Assembly: GCA_903847155.1 (NCBI GenBank)
Contig: CAINCU010000043.1
Coordinates: 1-64,000 of the forward strand
DNA length: 64,000 bases
Reading direction: 5' to 3'
DNA from: an uncultured Gallionellaceae bacterium
Lineage (GTDB): Bacteria > Pseudomonadota > Gammaproteobacteria > Burkholderiales > Gallionellaceae
The notes under the pieces are model-generated. The model did not search any database. It was not told where the DNA came from and saw only the letters and a program-made list of their open reading frames with translations. The number at the start of each line of letters is the position of its first letter. Within the stretch, counting starts at the first letter, position 1. Positions 1 through 8,414 of the stretch are shown in pieces. A program made the translations under genes and the position numbers.

Positions 1-42
1 AGTCGGGTAGCCGGACGCGATTGCTCGCACCCAGCCCCCTAA

Positions 43-76
43 GAACCGTGCTTGCGACTTTCACCGCACACGGCTC
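43..76 (-). ncRNA. Group II intron domain V (catalytic hairpin)
   Basis: A 34-nt hairpin that starts GAGCCGTGTGCGGTGAAAGT and ends GCACGGTTC, with a GAAA-type terminal loop. This is the most conserved part of the ribozyme and holds the catalytic triad region. Domain VI follows at 3-40 and supplies the branch-point adenosine. Confidence 0.9.
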
Positions 77-108
77 AAGCCTCTGCAAAGGCATCTTTCG
101 ACACCCGG

Positions 109-1773
109 TTACACAACTGCGTTTTCAGCGTAATACTGACTTCTACGGCAATTGAAATGGTGCAACTGAAGATTGCTTGCAGCATCCGATCCGCCCTCAG
201 CTTTTTTCACAATATGGCGAACATCCCAAGGGATGCTCTTTGTGATTGGCATCTGACAGATAGAGCACAAGCCATCCTGCTTTAGCCAGACACTGTAAAG
301 CTTCCGGCGACCTCGCGATGAGTTCAGCATTTTCTTGCCCCAGCGGGACTCGAAATACCCTCCCCATTGCGGGTCGTGCGGGTTGGCATCGGCTTTGATC
401 TTGATATGCCGTACTATTGGCGTATCCGATTCTTGCAGCAAGATGAGTTCTCTGCGCGTTCCATCTTCTTTTTTTTCTGTTGCGGCAAATACCCAGTTTC
501 GTGTACCTCGTGTTTTAAAGTATTTCTCTTTAACCCATCTGGCTCCCTTATTCGGATGCCTTCTTACCGCCCATTGCCATAGCATTGACCAGACATTGTG
601 ATCAACTTGAGCAAAGATTTCCTTGGCGACCACATGGCTATGGTAATTCGCCCATCCCCGTAAAACAGGATTAAGCAACCTTATCAGGTTTGCCTGTTTA
701 GCCGCCTTGTTGGCCTTGATGACTTCTCGGATTTTATCAAGATGCGCCTTGATGTTCGCTTTCGACGGCCTCATCAACAACGTGCCGTTGTTGTGTTTAC
801 GAATGTTCCATCCGAGGAAATCAAACCCCTCCCTGATGTGCGTTATTTTGGTCTTCTCCGGCGACAGAACTAGTCCGCGTTCCGCCAGAAATTCGACCAC
901 TGCTGGTTTAACCTCATGCTCCAGCCATTCTTTCGAGTTGCCAGTAATAATGAAGTCGTCTGCGTAACGCACCATGTGCATTTTCAGGCCCCTTCGCATT
1001 GCTTTCGGGAATTTCTCCGCCAGCTTTGCTTCGAGGCCATCAAGCGTCATGTTTGCCAGTACCGGACTGATGATGCCCCCTTGCGGGGTGCCAGCATCTG
1101 TGGGGAAGAGTTCGTTTTGATAAACGTATCCCGCCTTTAGCCACTTCTTTAGAATCGCCTTGTCCGTGGGGATGTTGGCGATCATCCAGTCATGACTGAT
1201 GTTGTCGAAACAGCCTTGGATGTCGGCCTCGAGCACCCATTTCGCACTTACTTTTCTTGCGAGAGAGATGAAGCATTTTTCCCCCGCATCGGCAGTTGAG
1301 CGTTCCGGCCTGAACCCGTAAGAATTTGGGTCAGCGGTGGTTTCCGCAACGGGTTCCAACGCCAGCAGATGTAATGCTTGCATGGCGCGGCACTTCATTA
1401 CGGGGATGCCGAGCGGCCTTGTCTTGCCATTCTTCTTCGGAATTAATACCCTCCGAAGCGGAAGCGGCGAGTAACCTCGCCGCTTCATCGACGCTATCGC
1501 GTTGATCTTTGCCATCGGTGTTTTCCATATGATCTTGTCCACACCGGGGGTGTTCTTGCCTTTATTTTCAGTCACCCGCTTGACGGCTAATGCTTTGCCA
1601 CTGAACGAGTGGGTCAGCAACCATTGCAGGGCTTTCACCCTGTTGTGGCAGCCTTCCTGTGTTGCCTTCACAATACGCGCTTGCAGCCGTCTTACCTGAC
1701 GCTGGACATCGACCCAACTGATGCCGTCCCACGTCATGCCGGAAGATGCACACGCCAGTGTTGCAGCGTCCAT
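109..1773 (-). CDS. ltrA: Group II intron reverse transcriptase/maturase with HNH domain
   Basis: This 554-residue protein helps its host intron splice and, with the intron RNA, can copy it into new DNA sites. The N-terminal region carries the RT-0/RT-1 part (KRVTENKGKNTPGVDK near 66-80), then the RT palm with AGTPQGGIISPVLAN near 227-241 and the catalytic YADD at 270-273. The maturase X domain follows (NPVLRGWANYH). The C-terminus is an HNH endonuclease with CSIC ... HIVKKAEGGSDAASNLQLHHFNC. All domains look intact and full length, so the element may be active. The ATG at 1773 matches the usual N-terminus of this family. Exact intron class (CL- or B-like) was not determined. Confidence 0.95.
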   Translation of the reverse strand: MDAATLACASSGMTWDGISWVDVQRQVRRLQARIVKATQEGCHNRVKALQWLLTHSFSGKALAVKRVTENKGKNTPGVDKIIWKTPMAKINAIASMKRRGYSPLPLRRVLIPKKNGKTRPLGIPVMKCRAMQALHLLALEPVAETTADPNSYGFRPERSTADAGEKCFISLARKVSAKWVLEADIQGCFDNISHDWMIANIPTDKAILKKWLKAGYVYQNELFPTDAGTPQGGIISPVLANMTLDGLEAKLAEKFPKAMRRGLKMHMVRYADDFIITGNSKEWLEHEVKPAVVEFLAERGLVLSPEKTKITHIREGFDFLGWNIRKHNNGTLLMRPSKANIKAHLDKIREVIKANKAAKQANLIRLLNPVLRGWANYHSHVVAKEIFAQVDHNVWSMLWQWAVRRHPNKGARWVKEKYFKTRGTRNWVFAATEKKEDGTRRELILLQESDTPIVRHIKIKADANPHDPQWGGYFESRWGKKMLNSSRGRRKLYSVWLKQDGLCSICQMPITKSIPWDVRHIVKKAEGGSDAASNLQLHHFNCRRSQYYAENAVV

Positions 1774-2383
1774 TTGCTTTCCCTCCGTTTAGATGGTTCT
1801 ACCAACTCTCTTGTGAAGAGAGACCATAAGGAAGTCTGCCCGCTTTCGCGTGAGGTGATGTTTCAACCTCTATCCGCCCCATTACAGAACGGCCTTCGCT
1901 TTTTCCTTGTTCCTATACCCGCAGCACCAACGGTGTTCCTTGCGGTTCACCTGCCGTTAACGGCAGCACTACGGGCTTACCCTGTTCCACTTGAATTTCA
2001 GAACGGGTCGGACCCCTCCTTTACGCCGGCGGCACACTGTCCACGATGGCCCATTTACGAAGAACCATGCCTCACCGCTTACCATTTTGGTTCAAGCCTA
2101 CCAGCACGTTTGGCTTGTCAACAATCACGACGTTTATAGAGGTTCACATATGTTGATCCTACCTGTTCATCCCTAGCTCCTCTCCGCCCTGTGCTGGCAG
2201 ATTTTGCCGTCCCTCGCGGGTTGGCATACCAAATTAATCGGCGGATACATTGTCCCCAGAGCTTCACACGGAGCTGTTACCGGCTCCGCATGTCTGGGTA
2301 GGGAACGGTTGATGGAACAACCGGTTTCATCAGTTCATGATTCCTCCTGTGAAACAGAAATACAAGCGACTTTCAGGTCGCAC

Positions 2384-2429
2384 CATAAAAATTATTGCAA
2401 TCCACCAGCGCGATGGCGCGTTGCGTCAT
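2384..2429 (-). CDS. umuC: umuC 5' exon (DNA polymerase V, interrupted)
   Basis: From the ATG at 2429 the minus strand encodes MTQRAIALVDCNNFY and the first base of codon 16. This is the conserved N-terminus of UmuC, the Y-family polymerase V subunit, whose DxxxFY motif contributes to the active site. The ATG overlaps the umuD stop codon (ATGA), the usual umuDC coupling. After 46 nt the group II intron begins; the first base beyond the intron, T, would make codon 16 GTN (Val), as in many UmuC proteins (NFYVSCERVF). The rest of the gene lies left of the window. Confidence 0.85.
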
Positions 2430-2905
2430 ACCTTATGCACGTTCCACTGCACCACACCCCAGATGGAAAAATCCTGTTCAGGCTTGATGGCAACCTCCGG
2501 GTAATCAGGATGCGCAGAGCGCAGCACTTTGCCATGCGGCGTATAGAGCAACTGCTTCACTGTAAACTCGCCATCCACCACTGCCACCACCACGCAACCG
2601 TGAGAGGCGGGCACGGAACGATCCACTACCAGCAGATCGCCATCGAAGATGCCTAGTTCACGCATCGAATGTCCAGACACGCGCATGAAGAACGTCGATT
2701 CTTTATGCTGGATCAGATGCTCATCCAGACTCAGTCGCCGCTCGACATAATCATCGGCAGGTGATGGAAAGCCTGCAGGCACGGACTTGCGCAACAAAGC
2801 GCGCTGCCTTTCGAACATTGATTTGTTGGGATGTGTCAGCGACAGCAAAACAGAGTGAGCGGCACGCCGCGCGGGGCTGACAAGGTTAGGGTTTAGACTG
2901 ATCAT
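2426..2905 (-). CDS. umuD: UmuD-like S24 peptidase (SOS mutagenesis)
   Basis: A 159-residue UmuD-family protein, the self-cleaving accessory subunit of translesion polymerase V. RecA filaments trigger cleavage at the Ala44-Gly45 bond (PAGFPSP), and the Ser/Lys dyad is Ser80 (GHSM) and Lys117 (FTVKQL). There is no DNA-binding domain, so it is not LexA itself. The stop TGA overlaps the umuC start, indicating translational coupling. Expression should be under SOS control through the two operators directly upstream. The N-terminal tail before the cleavage site (44 residues) is longer than in E. coli UmuD, so an internal start is possible. Confidence 0.9.
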   Translation of the reverse strand: MISLNPNLVSPARRAAHSVLLSLTHPNKSMFERQRALLRKSVPAGFPSPADDYVERRLSLDEHLIQHKESTFFMRVSGHSMRELGIFDGDLLVVDRSVPASHGCVVVAVVDGEFTVKQLLYTPHGKVLRSAHPDYPEVAIKPEQDFSIWGVVQWNVHKV

Positions 2906-2919
2906 GGTAATATTTAACA

Positions 2920-2964
2920 GAACGAACGTTCTTAAATAATAAAGAACGATCGTTCTGCTGTCAA
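2920..2964 (-). promoter_or_regulatory. umuDC promoter with two LexA-type operators
   Basis: On the minus strand, -35 TTGACA (2964-2959) and -10 TATTAT (2941-2936) are separated by 17 bp. Operator 1, GAACGATCGTTC (2944-2955), fills the spacer; operator 2, GAACGAACGTTC (2920-2931), covers the start-site region. Both fit GAACG-N2-CGTTC, that is GAAC-N4-GTTC, with centres 24 bp apart. This placement would block RNA polymerase. The motif is unlike the CTGT-N8-ACAG LexA box common in proteobacteria. Confidence 0.75.
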
Positions 2965-3279
2965 TTAAAAACCCTGTCCAACATGAAATGAGTTGGAAAT
3001 AGCATTATTGAAGTCGGTGTGTGGCATTTATGAAACATGCAGCATAATGAGAGTGTGTTAAAAAACACGAAATTGAGGGCTAAGATTATTATTAGCATGT
3101 TGTTTTTTGCCCCTACCTACCCCATGAGTTAGACTCAGTCCCTAGGGGCTAACAATTGGTTGGTGGCAACGAAGTGGGTGGGGTAACTATGGAGGTAATA
3201 AACAGCATTATGATTTATAGTATCAGGCAAACACACCAGTTAACGCGTGCTATTCGATAGCAATCGCGCGAAAAATGCC
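2965..3279. other. Intergenic region between umuD and the MCE operon
   Basis: About 315 bp of AT-rich sequence between the divergent umuD and MCE operons. It should hold the MCE-operon promoter, but no convincing -35/-10 pair was identified. A short open frame from ATG 3189 runs 23 codons to a stop at 3258-3260 and is not supported by any recognised similarity. Confidence 0.5.
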
Positions 3280-3834
3280 ATGTTCACATTGAGCCTGCAT
3301 GGAGAAGAAAATACCCAAGCCGAGCTTAAGCCTGGCTATTCATATTGTTTGATCGTGCGTTCAGATATTCAGCGCAAAGCTGCGTTGGATATGCTTGCGG
3401 CACAGCCGAACACTGCGGTTGTAGCGAACAATGGCGGACTCATCAGCAATTTGCGAGTGTGGGAAAATCTCGCACTGCCGGTGCAATATCGAAATATTCA
3501 ACTGGGTGGCAAACTTGAACAGGACGTGGTAAATCTATTCGAGAAGTGCGGCGTGCGTGATGAACAGTCATTTTCAGATCTGATGTTAAAACTGCCGGAT
3601 CAATTATCATTGTATGAAAAACGGCTGGTCGGTTTTGTGAGAGCGATGTTGATGATGCCGGAGATGATGGTGTACGACTCCTTGCATGAGGGGCTCTCGC
3701 CTAGAGAAATGGGAAAGACTGCCAGATTTGATCGTATTTTCCGTTTGTATTATCCGTTTCGCACTTCGGTATTATTGAGTTTTGAGGAGTACCGCGACTC
3801 GACCGAACCTAAACAAGTGGTTATCCAATTGTGA
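3280..3834 (+). CDS. Degenerate MlaF-like ABC ATPase subunit
   Basis: About 184 residues with the outline of an MlaF-type ABC ATPase. The stretch after the Q-loop position, NGGLISNLRVWENLALPVQYR, matches the family pattern closely. However, the Walker A glycine loop is replaced by IVRSDIQRKAAL, the LSGGQ signature by LPDQLSLYEKR, and the Walker B/catalytic Glu region by MMVYDSLHEGLS, which lacks the DE pair. It is therefore unlikely to hydrolyse ATP as a normal subunit. It is followed after one base by the MCE gene. The start is uncertain: ATG 3280 is chosen, and an in-frame GTG at 3247 would add 11 residues. It could act as a structural partner or work with an ATPase encoded elsewhere. Confidence 0.7.
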   Translation: MFTLSLHGEENTQAELKPGYSYCLIVRSDIQRKAALDMLAAQPNTAVVANNGGLISNLRVWENLALPVQYRNIQLGGKLEQDVVNLFEKCGVRDEQSFSDLMLKLPDQLSLYEKRLVGFVRAMLMMPEMMVYDSLHEGLSPREMGKTARFDRIFRLYYPFRTSVLLSFEEYRDSTEPKQVVIQL

Positions 3835-3835
3835 G

Positions 3836-4810
3836 ATGAAACTACCAAATTTCAATCTAAGCATACTGAATACAGAGCGCAAAACTATCCGCTTTATGTG
3901 GGGAGCGTTTATGGTTCTAGTTGTGGTATCAGGCCTGATTGCATTCAGACAAGATTATTTTGTGCGCAACACTGCGGTCTATTTTTTTGCACCTAATGCG
4001 CAGGGCCTCAGCAAAGGGATGGCGGTCAAATTCATCGGCTTCAAAGTGGGGAGCGTACAAGAGATCAGCATGCAGTCCAATGCATCGGTCAAGGTAAAAT
4101 TGTCGTTGGATAACGATTATGTTCGACTCATCGGGCAGGATGCCAAGGCTCGCTTGATTAAGGAGGCACTAGTAGGCGAGGGCGTGGTCGAGATCATACC
4201 TGGCGAGCAGCAGGTGCGTCAGGTGACTGAAAACAGTGTGTTGAATTTCGAACGCGGGGTTGATGCAGGATCACTGGTCGAGAATCTCACCGGGCAATTG
4301 CAGCCGATTCTGGCTGACGTGCACCAGATTACCTCTTCTATCAACAACCCGCGCGGCGATGTGCAGCAGATTCTGAAAAACCTCAATCAAGTCACCGGCG
4401 GCATGCGTGAGACAGTGGCGCAGCTCAATACGTTGGCGCAAAGCGGCAATATGCTGGTGCAAAGCGGCAATCAGAAACTGGATGGTGCGTATGTGAAAGT
4501 GGATCGCGCTCTGGATCATGTCAATGCAAGTCTGGAAGCAGTGGATAAAGCGATTCCGAAATTAGTGGGCAAAGCGGATGCGACGCTGGACAATGTGCAA
4601 TCGGTGACCGCCGACATAAAACATATAACAAGCGCATCTTCAGACCAGATACCCGCTTTGGTGCGCAATACCAATTCTCTGGTTCAAGATGGACAAGATA
4701 CCTTGAAAGGCGTCAAGAAATCCTGGTTGCTAAACGACTTTTTTCCCAAGCAAGAAGAGACGGTGCTGCCAGTGGATAGCTATGTGGCGCCGCTTCCGGT
4801 CAAGCCATGA
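3836..4810 (+). CDS. MCE-family (MlaD-like) lipid-transport protein
   Basis: A 324-residue substrate-binding component of a lipid ABC transporter. One N-terminal membrane segment (about residues 18-36) anchors it in the inner membrane. The MCE domain follows (NTAVYFFAPNAQGLSKGMAVKFIGFKVGSVQEI ... VGEGVVEIIPG). The rest is a long helical tail with repeated heptad-like QLNTLAQSGN/ADIKHITSAS segments, typical of MCE proteins that form a periplasmic tube. The ATG at 3836 begins one base after the upstream stop; the open frame runs further upstream but would overlap the ATPase gene. The stop overlaps the next gene by 4 nt (ATGA). Confidence 0.9.
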   Translation: MKLPNFNLSILNTERKTIRFMWGAFMVLVVVSGLIAFRQDYFVRNTAVYFFAPNAQGLSKGMAVKFIGFKVGSVQEISMQSNASVKVKLSLDNDYVRLIGQDAKARLIKEALVGEGVVEIIPGEQQVRQVTENSVLNFERGVDAGSLVENLTGQLQPILADVHQITSSINNPRGDVQQILKNLNQVTGGMRETVAQLNTLAQSGNMLVQSGNQKLDGAYVKVDRALDHVNASLEAVDKAIPKLVGKADATLDNVQSVTADIKHITSASSDQIPALVRNTNSLVQDGQDTLKGVKKSWLLNDFFPKQEETVLPVDSYVAPLPVKP

Positions 4811-5616
4811 TGAATACGTTTTTTCGTCGAAGCATTGTGCTCCTGCTTGCGTTATTGCTGCTATCCGCATGCAGTCATGAAGCACCGTTGGTTCGTAGCG
4901 CGAGACAAGAGCAGGCAATCGATTTCAATCTACGCGCCCAACGTGCATTTATGCGTGGCGATTATCAGACTGCAACCGACTTGTACGAGAGCGCCCTACA
5001 GTTGGATAGTGCCATCGAAAATATCGATGGCATTGCCGTTAATTTGCTGAATCTGGCGAAAGTAAATCAAGCGTTGGGAAAGCCTGCGGTTGCGCAACGG
5101 TATTTGGATCGACTATTGAGCGATAAGGCATTGCGTTACCCTTTGGTACATCTTGCAGCAGCTGCAACGCAATATGGTCTGATTCGATTGCAAGCTGGCG
5201 ATGTCACTGCGGCGAAATCTTGGGCGGACAAGGCGGTAGGATATTGTCTCTCCGACTGCAAGCTGAATGGCGTAATCGCCAATCTGAGAGCGAATATTGC
5301 GATACAGTCAAACGATGCAGATCAGGCGGTGTATTGGAGCGAGCATGCAGTCTCCGCCAATAAAAGTGAAACGCAGGTTGAATATGCCAATGCCATTCGT
5401 TTGTTGGCGCAATCCAAATTGTTAAAGCGAGAGTTCAGGGCAGCGCCGCCATTGTTGGAAGAAGTGCTTGGCATTGACAAGATATTGGGGTTGCCGGACA
5501 AAATTCGCCAAGATCTGCTGCTGCTCGCTCAAGCTCAGGATAAGCTGGGTGGAGCAGAGCTGGCTGCACAGTATCGCGAACGGGCAGCGCGCATCGCGGC
5601 CACTTCCCTGAAGTGA
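4807..5616 (+). CDS. TPR-repeat lipoprotein of the MCE operon
   Basis: A 269-residue predicted outer- or inner-membrane lipoprotein. The N-terminus is a signal peptide ending in the lipobox LLSAC (lipidated Cys22). The mature part is made of tetratricopeptide-like helices (FNLRAQRAFMRGDYQTATDLYESALQLDSA, and several later repeats), suited to protein-protein contacts. It overlaps the MCE gene by 4 nt and so is translationally coupled to it. It occupies the place where Mla-type operons carry an auxiliary lipoprotein, but its TPR architecture differs from MlaA or the YmbA/PqiC family. The partner is unknown. Confidence 0.8.
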   Translation: MMNTFFRRSIVLLLALLLLSACSHEAPLVRSARQEQAIDFNLRAQRAFMRGDYQTATDLYESALQLDSAIENIDGIAVNLLNLAKVNQALGKPAVAQRYLDRLLSDKALRYPLVHLAAAATQYGLIRLQAGDVTAAKSWADKAVGYCLSDCKLNGVIANLRANIAIQSNDADQAVYWSEHAVSANKSETQVEYANAIRLLAQSKLLKREFRAAPPLLEEVLGIDKILGLPDKIRQDLLLLAQAQDKLGGAELAAQYRERAARIAATSLK

Positions 5617-5629
5617 GAGGATCGTAGCG

Positions 5630-7429
5630 ATGGAGTTAAAGCTAGGTGGACTGAAGCTGGAAAATAACAAAGTCAGGATCGGTTTGGGTTTTGGCCTGTG
5701 CTTGTTGGTGACCATCGTGTTGACTTTTTCTCACTTGAGCGAGAGTCTGAGCCGAAAAATTCTGGACAGGCAGTTTGCTTATTTGCGCGACCACTATCCA
5801 CACCCGATCAGCAACGACGTGGTGATCGTCGGTATTGATGAAGCGACCTTCAAGACCTTCAAAGAACCATACGAATTATGGCATCCCCACTTTGGGAAAT
5901 TCTTGCAGGCCATGACTCGCACCAAGCCTTCGGTTCTTGGGATTGATGTGGCATTGCCAGAGCATTCCTATGATTTTCTGATACCAAAGTATGACCAAAA
6001 TATTGCGCAGGGTTTGCTTGCGCTGAAATCGCAAACTCCTATCGTGCTTGGGCAGATGCTGGACGAAAACGGGAATTTTCGTTCGGTGTATGCGCCTTTT
6101 ATTGATGCATCCGGCGCGGATGCTTTGGCTCCGGTAGTGGTTTGCTCTGAAACGGACGGTGTGGCACGACGAGCCGACCCGAATCAATGCACAGTCAATG
6201 CGCAAGGCGAGACGCTGACTGAAGCAATGGCTGCACATCTGGGCAAGAAGCAAACATCGCGTGGCTTGGTCGATTTTGCGGTGGGTGATGATTTGACTTA
6301 CATACCCTTCCAAAAAGTGTTGGAGTGGGCAGATCAGGGTGATGAGGAACAATTGCAGCATGCTTTTTCCGGTAAGCCAGTGTTGGTTGGAATGATTTTG
6401 CCGTTCGAGGATCGCGTGAATTTGCCAGTAGTGCTGGCGGCGTGGGAGCCGGAGAACCGTCATCTTTCGACAGTGGTGTGGCAAGCTCAGGCATTGCGTT
6501 CAATGCTGACAAATGGGCTTCTCAAGGACTCCAATCCGAATTTTGTGCTGGTGTTGAGCCTGCTTGCGACGTTGCTCTGGTTTGCGCGTTTGCACTGGCT
6601 GAGATTTGTTTCTCTGGTGATTCTGCCAATTTCACTACTCATTTATTCGACTTGGTTGTTGCGTCATGCAGTGCATTTGCCGGTAGGGGGAATTTTATTT
6701 TCCGGCTTATTTGCTTTTGCGATGCGCTCGATTTATGAGTTGGTATTGAAGGAGCGCGAGAACAAACAATTACGCGGAATATTCGGCAATTACGTTAGCG
6801 CTGAAGCGTTGCGTGCGCTGATGGCGGGCGGTGTTCAATCGAGTCTGGAAGGGGAGCGCAAGCGCGTGTGCATCCTGTTTGCAGATATTCATAATTTCGG
6901 CGCGCGCAGCGAAAGTAGCTCCCCGCAAGAAGTGGTCGTTGTGTTGAACGAATACTTTTCTGAAATGGCAGTAGCCATCCACCAGCACGATGGAACGGTC
7001 AGCAAGTTTGTTGGCGATTCCATCATGGCGTGTTTTGGTGCACCACAGGCTCTGGAATGTCCTGAGAAGAACGCATTGGAAGCTGCGCAAGAGATGTTGC
7101 TGAGTGTGCGCCAAGTTAATGCACGCTTGAAAGAGCGTGGCATCGCTCCAATAGAAATAGGCATCGGTCTGCACGTGGGAGATGTGGTGATCGGGCATAT
7201 CGGCTCGGAATCTCGCCACGAATACACGGCCATTGGTGAAGTCGTGAGTATAGCTGCCAAACTGGAAGAGCTAACCAAGACCTTGGGTTACCCGGTGGTT
7301 TGCTCCAAGGCGGTAGCGGAAAGCGTTGAACTGTCCGGCGGTCTTACTGATTTAGGCAATCAACCGATGAAGGGCGATGCAGTGTTATCAGTGTGTGGTT
7401 GGTATCCGCCATTGTTTGCGGCAAACTGA
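5630..7429 (+). CDS. CHASE2-domain class III adenylate/guanylate cyclase-like protein
   Basis: This 599-residue protein has an N-terminal membrane segment, a periplasmic CHASE2 sensor domain (about 40-290, with LDRQFAYLRDHYPHP and VVIVGIDEATF), three membrane helices (about 305-365) and a cytoplasmic class III cyclase domain (about 410-590). Both metal-binding aspartates are present: Asp419 (FADIHNF) and Asp463 (KFVGDSIMA). The transition-state Asn and Arg of the usual VNLAARLE motif are replaced by Ser540 and Lys544 (VVSIAAKLE). Activity may be reduced or altered. It lies between the lipoprotein and permease genes, with a 1-nt TGATG overlap to the latter, which ties a signalling output to lipid transport. 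Confidence 0.88.
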   Translation: MELKLGGLKLENNKVRIGLGFGLCLLVTIVLTFSHLSESLSRKILDRQFAYLRDHYPHPISNDVVIVGIDEATFKTFKEPYELWHPHFGKFLQAMTRTKPSVLGIDVALPEHSYDFLIPKYDQNIAQGLLALKSQTPIVLGQMLDENGNFRSVYAPFIDASGADALAPVVVCSETDGVARRADPNQCTVNAQGETLTEAMAAHLGKKQTSRGLVDFAVGDDLTYIPFQKVLEWADQGDEEQLQHAFSGKPVLVGMILPFEDRVNLPVVLAAWEPENRHLSTVVWQAQALRSMLTNGLLKDSNPNFVLVLSLLATLLWFARLHWLRFVSLVILPISLLIYSTWLLRHAVHLPVGGILFSGLFAFAMRSIYELVLKERENKQLRGIFGNYVSAEALRALMAGGVQSSLEGERKRVCILFADIHNFGARSESSSPQEVVVVLNEYFSEMAVAIHQHDGTVSKFVGDSIMACFGAPQALECPEKNALEAAQEMLLSVRQVNARLKERGIAPIEIGIGLHVGDVVIGHIGSESRHEYTAIGEVVSIAAKLEELTKTLGYPVVCSKAVAESVELSGGLTDLGNQPMKGDAVLSVCGWYPPLFAAN

Positions 7430-8208
7430 TGTCCGAACTCTGGAACAAAGTCAGTCTTTGGTTGAAGCTGGGACAGATAGTCCAGACCGTACAAGGTTGC
7501 TTTGCATTGTGGTGGTATGCGACTACCCATTACCGAGTTTTGAGGATAGTGCCGGTCAATACCGTGTTTCATCGTCAGATTTTTTTTACCGGAGTTGAGG
7601 CTTGGGGCATCGTCGCGGTGTTTGGCTTTCTGTGCGGCACGCTGGTCATTACCCAGACCACCTCACTGGTCGGTGGTGACAGCGAACTGACGGTGAAAAT
7701 ATTGATCTGGACAGTGGTGCGCGAAGTCGGTCCTTTGTTCGCCGCCATCATCATCATCGCGCGTAGCAGTGCCGCCATTGCTTCCGAGTTGGCGCTGATG
7801 AAAACGCGCAACGAAATGACTCATCTCTCTCGTATGGGTATATCGCCTTATGATTACTTGGTTGTTCCTCGTATTTTCGGTGTGACGCTGGCTGTGGTTG
7901 CGCTAACCATCTATTTCCAAGTCGTCGCCATCGGCGGTGGTCTGGCAGTGAGCGCGCTCTTTCAGAACGTATCCTACTTCGACCAGATAGGACGTTTTTT
8001 GAGCACAGTTAAGCTCAGCGAGTTCGTGCTGGTCGCATTCAAAGGCTGTGTATTTGGCATCGCTATTTCTACCATCTCTTGCTACAACGGCATGCAAGCC
8101 CATCCCTCGGTGACTGAAGTACCCAAGGTTGCTATCCGCGCTGTGCTGCAAAGCTTGCTGTTTGTGTTTACTCTGGATGCATTGATTGCATATCTCGGCA
8201 CGATGTAG
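7429..8208 (+). CDS. MlaE-family ABC transporter permease
   Basis: A 259-residue permease of the MlaE/TrnE family, the membrane channel of MCE lipid transporters. Hydrophobic segments and the conserved REVGPLFAAIIIIARSSAAIASELALMKTRNEMTHL region (the EVGP...ARSG...ELG...MR pattern of the family) are clear, as is the C-terminal KGCVFGIAISTISCYNG. The ATG at 7429 overlaps the cyclase stop as TGATG; an upstream in-frame GTG at 7393 lies inside the cyclase gene and is not preferred. It is the last gene of the five-gene operon. Confidence 0.9.
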   Translation: MSELWNKVSLWLKLGQIVQTVQGCFALWWYATTHYRVLRIVPVNTVFHRQIFFTGVEAWGIVAVFGFLCGTLVITQTTSLVGGDSELTVKILIWTVVREVGPLFAAIIIIARSSAAIASELALMKTRNEMTHLSRMGISPYDYLVVPRIFGVTLAVVALTIYFQVVAIGGGLAVSALFQNVSYFDQIGRFLSTVKLSEFVLVAFKGCVFGIAISTISCYNGMQAHPSVTEVPKVAIRAVLQSLLFVFTLDALIAYLGTM

Positions 8209-8398: not shown

Positions 8399-8414
8399 TA
8401 GCAGAGTGAATAAA

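Follow-up and report, generated by a model that had tools for sequence, protein, structure and literature searches.

Can an MCE lipid-transport operon be maintained once the ATPase that should power it has lost its catalytic residues? The question is raised by five plus-strand genes packed at positions 3280-8208 of the window, by which we mean the whole stretch of 64,000 nucleotides analysed here, taken from contig CAINCU010000043.1 of an uncultured Gallionellaceae bacterium. These genes encode a degenerate ATP-binding cassette (ABC) ATPase, an MCE protein, a tetratricopeptide repeat (TPR) lipoprotein, a CHASE2 cyclase and an MlaE-family permease, and thrS comes next, at 8406. The initial annotation described the five as overlapping or nearly touching, and the coordinates agree, with junctions of +1 bp (ATPase/MCE), -4 bp (MCE/TPR), +13 bp (TPR/cyclase) and -1 bp (cyclase/permease). 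It also took the locus for an MCE system without a working ATPase of its own, and such a system is real and conserved: the degenerate subunit, hereafter the pseudo-ATPase or pseudo-nucleotide-binding domain (pseudo-NBD), is intact and under purifying selection.

Judged from an alignment with intact ATPases, one MlaF-like from the host genome itself and two from outgroups, the window's subunit has lost all the catalytic parts for ATP hydrolysis and retained the fold. VRSDIQRK stands at the Walker A position, Asn at the Q-loop Gln, LSLYE at LSGGQ, DS at the Walker B DE and Glu at the switch His; the loss of Walker A, LSGGQ and the catalytic Glu had been noticed at the outset, and the Q-loop Gln and the switch His join the list. 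The Pfam model ABC_tran reaches only E=0.021 with this protein (15.8 bits, cut-off 25), and no other Pfam or NCBIfam model passes its cut-off either. The MlaF-like outline that had also been claimed was recovered both by a phmmer search of the PDB, in which P. aeruginosa MlaF ranks first (E=1.6e-7), and by a confident AlphaFold2 (AF2) model (pLDDT 91.5, pTM 0.89), the alignment for which took in two intact outgroup ATPases. The model has the ABC nucleotide-binding domain (NBD) fold, and its top structural match is E. coli MlaF (6xbd_I; Z 18.2, 174 aligned residues, 2.6 A, 18% identity), tied with several further matches that follow within 1 Z. The whole NBD core is there; since the model aligns with MlaF only to residue 218, the C-terminal tail is missing.

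Motif loss by itself would look alike in a decayed allele or a pseudogene operon, so that the fate of the gene in relatives matters. A search of 61 genomes, 34 of them in the host's genus, found the pseudo-ATPase at full length and without internal stops in 26 of the 34 (19 of the 21 that are at least 90% complete), the other 25 copies being 60-89% identical to that of the window. The median pairwise ratio of nonsynonymous to synonymous substitution (dN/dS) is 0.096 for the pseudo-ATPase, 0.110 for the permease, 0.123 for the MCE protein, 0.172 for the cyclase and 0.198 for the TPR lipoprotein; these Nei-Gojobori values, taken from pairs with a proportion of synonymous differences 0.05<pS<0.6, are rough, many pairs having dS near 1. 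All five genes, with thrS following among the genes sought, were found in 19 of the 26 genomes (that of the window and 18 others), and of the seven remaining loci two lack the cyclase and five are cut by contig ends. One locus (L052) has thrS split in two pieces, L039 and L003 come from the same genome, and the named relative, a Sideroxydans metagenome-assembled genome, is 86% identical. The host probably belongs to the same group as this relative.

Beyond the genus, a search of 300 genomes of the order with an ATPase profile returned 24 genomes at E <=2.3e-16, three of them in the genus, followed by a gap to 9e-13. Since the profile had been built on degenerate ATPases, ascertainment bias was suspected, and these 300 genomes were searched again with a permease profile. 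That suspicion was not upheld, the identical 24 genomes being returned at E <=1.8e-75; after a gap, the next matches begin at 2.3e-48 with permeases whose frames measure about 380 residues, presumably of the STAS type. The ATPase is degenerate in all 24, including the remaining one (G177), which was read by eye, and no version of the operon with an intact ATPase was found in the 300-genome sample. Relatives with an intact ATPase in the same position, which the initial annotation had named as the finding that would reduce the window's copy to a decayed allele, thus failed to appear within the order. As the gene is carried by 26 genomes of the genus and by 24 of the 300 sampled from the order, without stops and at a dN/dS of about 0.1, the decayed allele or pseudogene operon is ruled out, and we give it next to no credence.

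The permease, pseudo-ATPase, MCE and TPR genes all occur in each of the 22 order loci examined outside the genus, which represent 20 of the 21 outside-genus genomes among the 24 (L065, L094-L112) and two sister-genus genomes from the 61-genome search (L063, L064); L113, with an ATPase match at E 6.6e-12 and no operon, was not counted. L096, from the same family as the window, shows pseudo-ATPase, MCE, TPR and permease genes in that order, which is the window's arrangement minus the cyclase. Across the 48 ATPases of the genus (26) and order (22), Walker A, the Q-loop Gln, LSGG and DE are each retained in none, and the switch His in one.

A family limited to one order was also considered and had to be rejected, relatives being found elsewhere in the class. 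Among 370 class genomes, 15 that do not belong to the order scored at least 172 bits in a permease-led search, a cut that marks no score gap (next row 170.6) and was placed where frames jump from about 290 residues or less to about 380. G544 (586 residues) and G394 (320 residues) are exceptions above the cut; below it, G538 and G598 were the only short-frame permeases examined. The 17 distant ATPases are those of 14 of the 15 plus G598, G537 and G789, the last two having entered through ATPase-led searches, and an MCE match lies next to all 17, a permease next to 16 and a TPR protein next to 14. The Walker A pattern GxxxxGK[ST] is retained in six of them, DE in five and His in three; neither LSGG nor the Q-loop Gln occurs in any, so that the LSGGQ signature is missing from all 65 subfamily ATPases of genus, order and distant set. 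L165 and L173 look nearly competent, retaining Walker A, Glu and His, not LSGGQ. The ATPase of G499, which was read and kept out of the motif table, also lacks Walker A. Furthermore, ATPase-led searches of class and phylum yielded 18 new loci (L115-L132) that were motif-scanned out of many more matches; 13 have a strict Walker A, and L115, L116, L117, L123 and L132 lack the strict pattern, L132 having a looser one. A lone permease of related type (L174:4894-5688, genome G538), with no ATPase or MCE match nearby, was left out of the counts.

Phylogenetic analysis of the permeases (46 rows, midpoint root, the partial permease of L063 left out) places the order in one clade of 27 rows, with support 99/98, in which all ATPases are Walker-A-less. 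The Walker-A-less label changes four times on this tree, three of the changes being forced by well-supported branches, and erosion of the ATPase therefore probably occurred repeatedly.

What a subunit without catalytic motifs may still do is suggested by its conservation profile over 25 sequences (22 from the order, 3 from the genus). Residues 50-70 have a mean top-residue fraction of 0.70 and residues 114-125 one of 0.57, compared with 0.36 for the signature and 0.27 for the C-terminus. Residues 50-70 align to the Q-loop region of FtsE, which contacts the transmembrane subunit according to an excerpt of PMC7468199, and the coupling helix of MlaE is described as its contact with MlaF in an excerpt of PMC7790496. 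Conservation of the pseudo-ATPase is highest in the stretch that would be expected to dock on the permease. The operon's permease and the genome's canonical one share about 27% identity; the putative coupling helix of the former follows the form ELAxM..xGE..xL, found in most order permeases, versus EIGxMKxTEQIxAM in the latter. Because the docking segment is conserved and the coupling helix distinct from that of canonical MlaE, we infer that the pseudo-NBD is a binding partner of the permease. A pseudo-NBD that still binds or slowly hydrolyses nucleotide through unusual residues would fit the fully retained fold and the motif residues left in L165 and L173 (Walker A, the Walker B Glu, the switch His). 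In the window's protein, however, none of the five motif features is present, and the Walker A region, with a fraction of 0.33, belongs to the less well conserved stretches; we hold this explanation to be very improbable.

The other core subunits are recognisable members of their families. The MCE protein passes the MCE/MlaD model (PF02470, E=1.4e-14, 54.5 bits, cut-off 25.1), and its best NCBIfam model is TIGR00996 (Mtu_fam_mce, E=1.3e-24), at 86.9 bits below the cut-off of 140.5; an N-terminal transmembrane helix precedes one MCE barrel (residues ~44-141) and a long helical C-terminus (144-295). The permease passes the MlaE domain (PF02405, E=2.6e-49, 168 bits, cut-off 22.5) and falls under the cut-off of TIGR00056 (122 versus 212 bits).

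On balance we favour, with some reserve, the view that this is a widespread MCE lipid conduit whose pseudo-NBD docks or gates without hydrolysing ATP. Its core would consist of the MlaE-like permease, the pseudo-NBD, the MCE needle protein and the TPR lipoprotein. Two pseudo-NBDs, each seated on a coupling helix of the dimeric permease, would form a structural or gating base, and the MCE hexamer with its helical needle would take lipid over the periplasm to the TPR lipoprotein in the outer membrane. Lipid movement or gating in this system probably does without a dedicated ATP motor and would be driven by concentration, by a downstream sink or by proteins that bind the pseudo-NBD; a parallel is found in PqiA and LetA, which work with MCE tunnels and have no ATPase domain. 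In the genus, the CHASE2 cyclase would be a later accessory, now losing catalysis.

The initial annotation had suggested that the operon might borrow an ATPase and that a second mla operon be looked for, and one was found on contig C54 of the same genome, with a permease recognised by PF02405, an MlaF-like ATPase, and neighbours named MlaD, MlaC and STAS/MlaB-like only from a reading of the open reading frames. In a borrowed-motor arrangement, the MlaF homodimer of such a separate operon would bind and power the permease, and the pseudo-NBD would be an assembly factor, a cap or a competitor. An MlaF-like ATPase is present at E <=1e-60 in 40 of the 42 genomes with the system, none reaching the curated MlaF cut-off, and in all 36 of those whose system ATPase is Walker-A-less. 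The system ATPase has Walker A in the only two genomes without such a match, G520 and G789 (L170, L179), a pattern with a chance of about 0.017 that is post hoc and small and that we regard as suggestive. For the binding of MlaFB to MlaE, moreover, low affinity and perhaps reversibility have been proposed (an excerpt of PMC7790496), as borrowing would ask. Against it stand the putative coupling helix, non-canonical in all order sequences listed, and the conserved docking surface of the pseudo-NBD, which suggests pairing with its own permease; the near-universal presence of MlaF in the 42 genomes also makes co-occurrence weak as an argument. Each ABC ATP site is built from the Walker A of one subunit and the LSGGQ of the other. 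With neither of the two on the pseudo-subunit, a mixed dimer of MlaF and pseudo-NBD could not assemble even one full composite ATP site, and borrowing would presumably be possible only as a whole MlaF homodimer. Taken together, we consider a borrowed motor rather unlikely.

The cyclase bears on a further possibility, that the operon is a signalling or scaffold module of the FtsEX type rather than a transporter, with the CHASE2 cyclase as its output. The gene lies within the operon in the 19 genus genomes mentioned above, and its product has both domains (Guanylate_cyc, PF00211, E=3.7e-22, 79 bits; CHASE2, E=2.4e-17). With residue roles assigned after an excerpt of PMC2576301, the window's copy retains both metal-binding residues, Asp419 and Asp463, as well as Lys459 and Thr533, and in helix alpha4 the transition-state Asn and Arg are replaced by Ser540 and Lys544. 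Among the 21 readable cyclases of the genus (those of L040, L043 and L053 are cut by contig ends), both metal Asp residues occur in 14, the transition-state Asn in one, the Arg in two, and Asn and Arg together in none. The first metal Asp is lost in six of the 21 (Arg in L056-L060, Asn in L055), and L050 has kept the first and lost the second. The cyclase copies of the L056-L060 clade evolve at a dN/dS of about 0.14-0.18 despite the lost catalytic residues, and in the three members scanned (L057, L059, L060) CHASE2 is kept and the cyclase match is above cut-off, if weaker than in the window. The protein is therefore under purifying selection even with its catalytic residues lost, which suits a signalling role.

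Two genus genomes out of the 26 have lost the gene, L061 having none and L062 a decayed N-terminal remnant (L062:6186-6389); since this remnant sits between the TPR and permease genes, the cyclase is being lost in place. The cyclase profile matched nothing in the 22 outside-genus loci of the order, all of which have MCE and TPR genes, and among the order loci examined an operon cyclase is confined to genus members. At the distant locus L173 (genome G406), a CHASE2-cyclase whose metal and transition-state residues are canonical is encoded on the minus strand at L173:8546-10858, about 1.6 kb from the operon, behind an oppositely oriented gene that reads as moaA-like. As one case among the distant loci, this proximity may be due to chance. 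The cyclase seems to be turning into a pseudoenzyme and not to be the core output. If it still acts, it probably does so as a membrane sensor or scaffold; a signalling module seems to us quite improbable. The five-gene order, for which a search in other genomes had been proposed, holds in those 19 genomes of the genus and gives way to a four-gene core in the order loci outside it, the cyclase cannot be counted as a defining part, and the suggested coupling of envelope lipid status to a cyclic-nucleotide output is weak.

Several observations weigh against the conduit that we favour. The pseudo-ATPase was not found in eight of the 34 genus genomes, two of which (G015 and G020) are 99% complete and have neither it nor the operon's permease, and the system is therefore dispensable. 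As many as 27 of the 49 members of the ATPase alignment, two intact outgroups included, match ABC_tran at E <=0.01, the window's protein not among them, and nucleotide binding via non-canonical residues is possible. Docking and lipid transport would follow from homology, and in the AF2 model of the MCE protein the barrel is confident and the helical needle of low confidence. To these must be added the MlaF-like ATPases that accompany the system so regularly and the canonical cyclase near the operon of L173.

A broader proposal, to which we allow slightly less than an even chance, is that a Pseudomonadota subfamily of MCE systems gave up ATP hydrolysis, its NBD being left with docking and gating alone, and turned from a pump into a passive or otherwise driven trans-envelope conduit, one genus's CHASE2 cyclase following it towards a pseudoenzyme. 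No degenerate ATPase in an MCE operon was recognised in the open-licence PMC literature, and one may be in print elsewhere. The power source of MCE systems and the direction of their lipid transport are open questions, and a series of ATPases running from nearly intact to dead on related MlaE/MCE backbones offers a test of the need for ATP hydrolysis, of what the NBD does besides hydrolysis and of how a pump turns into a conduit. Surveys of MlaF with curated hidden Markov models may mis-score such systems.

Upstream of the operon (1-3279), the window carries two minus-strand genes where relatives have a tRNA-Val. This tRNA-Val(GAC) lies about 40 bases 5' of the operon in 8 of 8 relatives scanned, which were chosen from 12 with upstream DNA, and a tRNA 3' end is found in 9 of the 12. 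The window has no tRNA-Val at that place, only a piece resembling a tRNA 3' end (3253-3269), and an identical tRNA-Val is found on contig C69 of the host. The tRNA end is the probable point of entry of an integrative element.

Table 1. Coordinates of the features discussed, in positions of the window
Feature	Position	Strand	Basis
Group II intron reverse transcriptase/maturase, borderline HNH match	109-1773	-	
S24 (LexA/UmuD-like) peptidase	2426-2905	-	
Pseudo-ATPase (pseudo-NBD), MlaF-like ABC fold without catalytic motifs, 184 residues	3280-3834	+	
Pseudo-ATPase residues 50-70, conserved Q-loop/coupling-helix-groove segment	3427-3489	+	Alignment conservation
MCE protein, 324 residues	3836-4810	+	PF02470
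TPR lipoprotein, lipobox LSAC then Ser	4807-5616	+	TPR_12 E=6e-9; lipobox read
CHASE2 + class III cyclase, 599 residues	5630-7429	+	PF05226, PF00211
Cyclase codons 540-544, Ser...Lys replacing canonical Asn...Arg	7247-7261	+	Residue table
MlaE-family permease, short type, 259 residues	7429-8208	+	PF02405; tree
Putative permease coupling helix, residues 120-133, non-canonical form	7786-7827	+	Placed by alignment only

How does this system compare with those already described? With MlaFEDCB it shares an MlaE-family permease, a protein with a single MCE domain and an ABC-fold subunit nearest MlaF. It differs in that a pseudo-NBD without catalytic motifs stands in place of an active MlaF, no MlaB or MlaC gene is among the five (no STAS or MlaC match was obtained with Pfam for the five operon proteins), the MCE protein has a long helical C-terminus and a TPR lipoprotein is present. 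PqiA and LetA are unrelated to MlaE. The PqiABC and LetAB systems resemble the present one in having MCE tunnels and an inner-membrane protein without an ATPase domain, and Pqi ends in an outer-membrane lipoprotein (an excerpt of PMC12436622). Unlike them, the system described here has retained the ABC architecture with a dead motor. Mycobacterial Mce1 has an active ATPase and six different Mce chains. The likeness to Mce1 (PDB 8fed) lies in the MCE protein, whose best NCBIfam model is the mycobacterial one and whose helices follow the MCE domain. In Brucella, the chimeric Mla-Pqi system Mpc (MpcEFDA) likewise combines a permease, an ABC subunit, an MCE needle and an outer-membrane lipoprotein; in contrast to the operon of the window, as an excerpt of PMC12436622 describes it, Mpc has a well-conserved ABC transporter with an MlaF-homologous ATPase, a permease with a STAS domain and a lipoprotein that is PqiC-like, not TPR.

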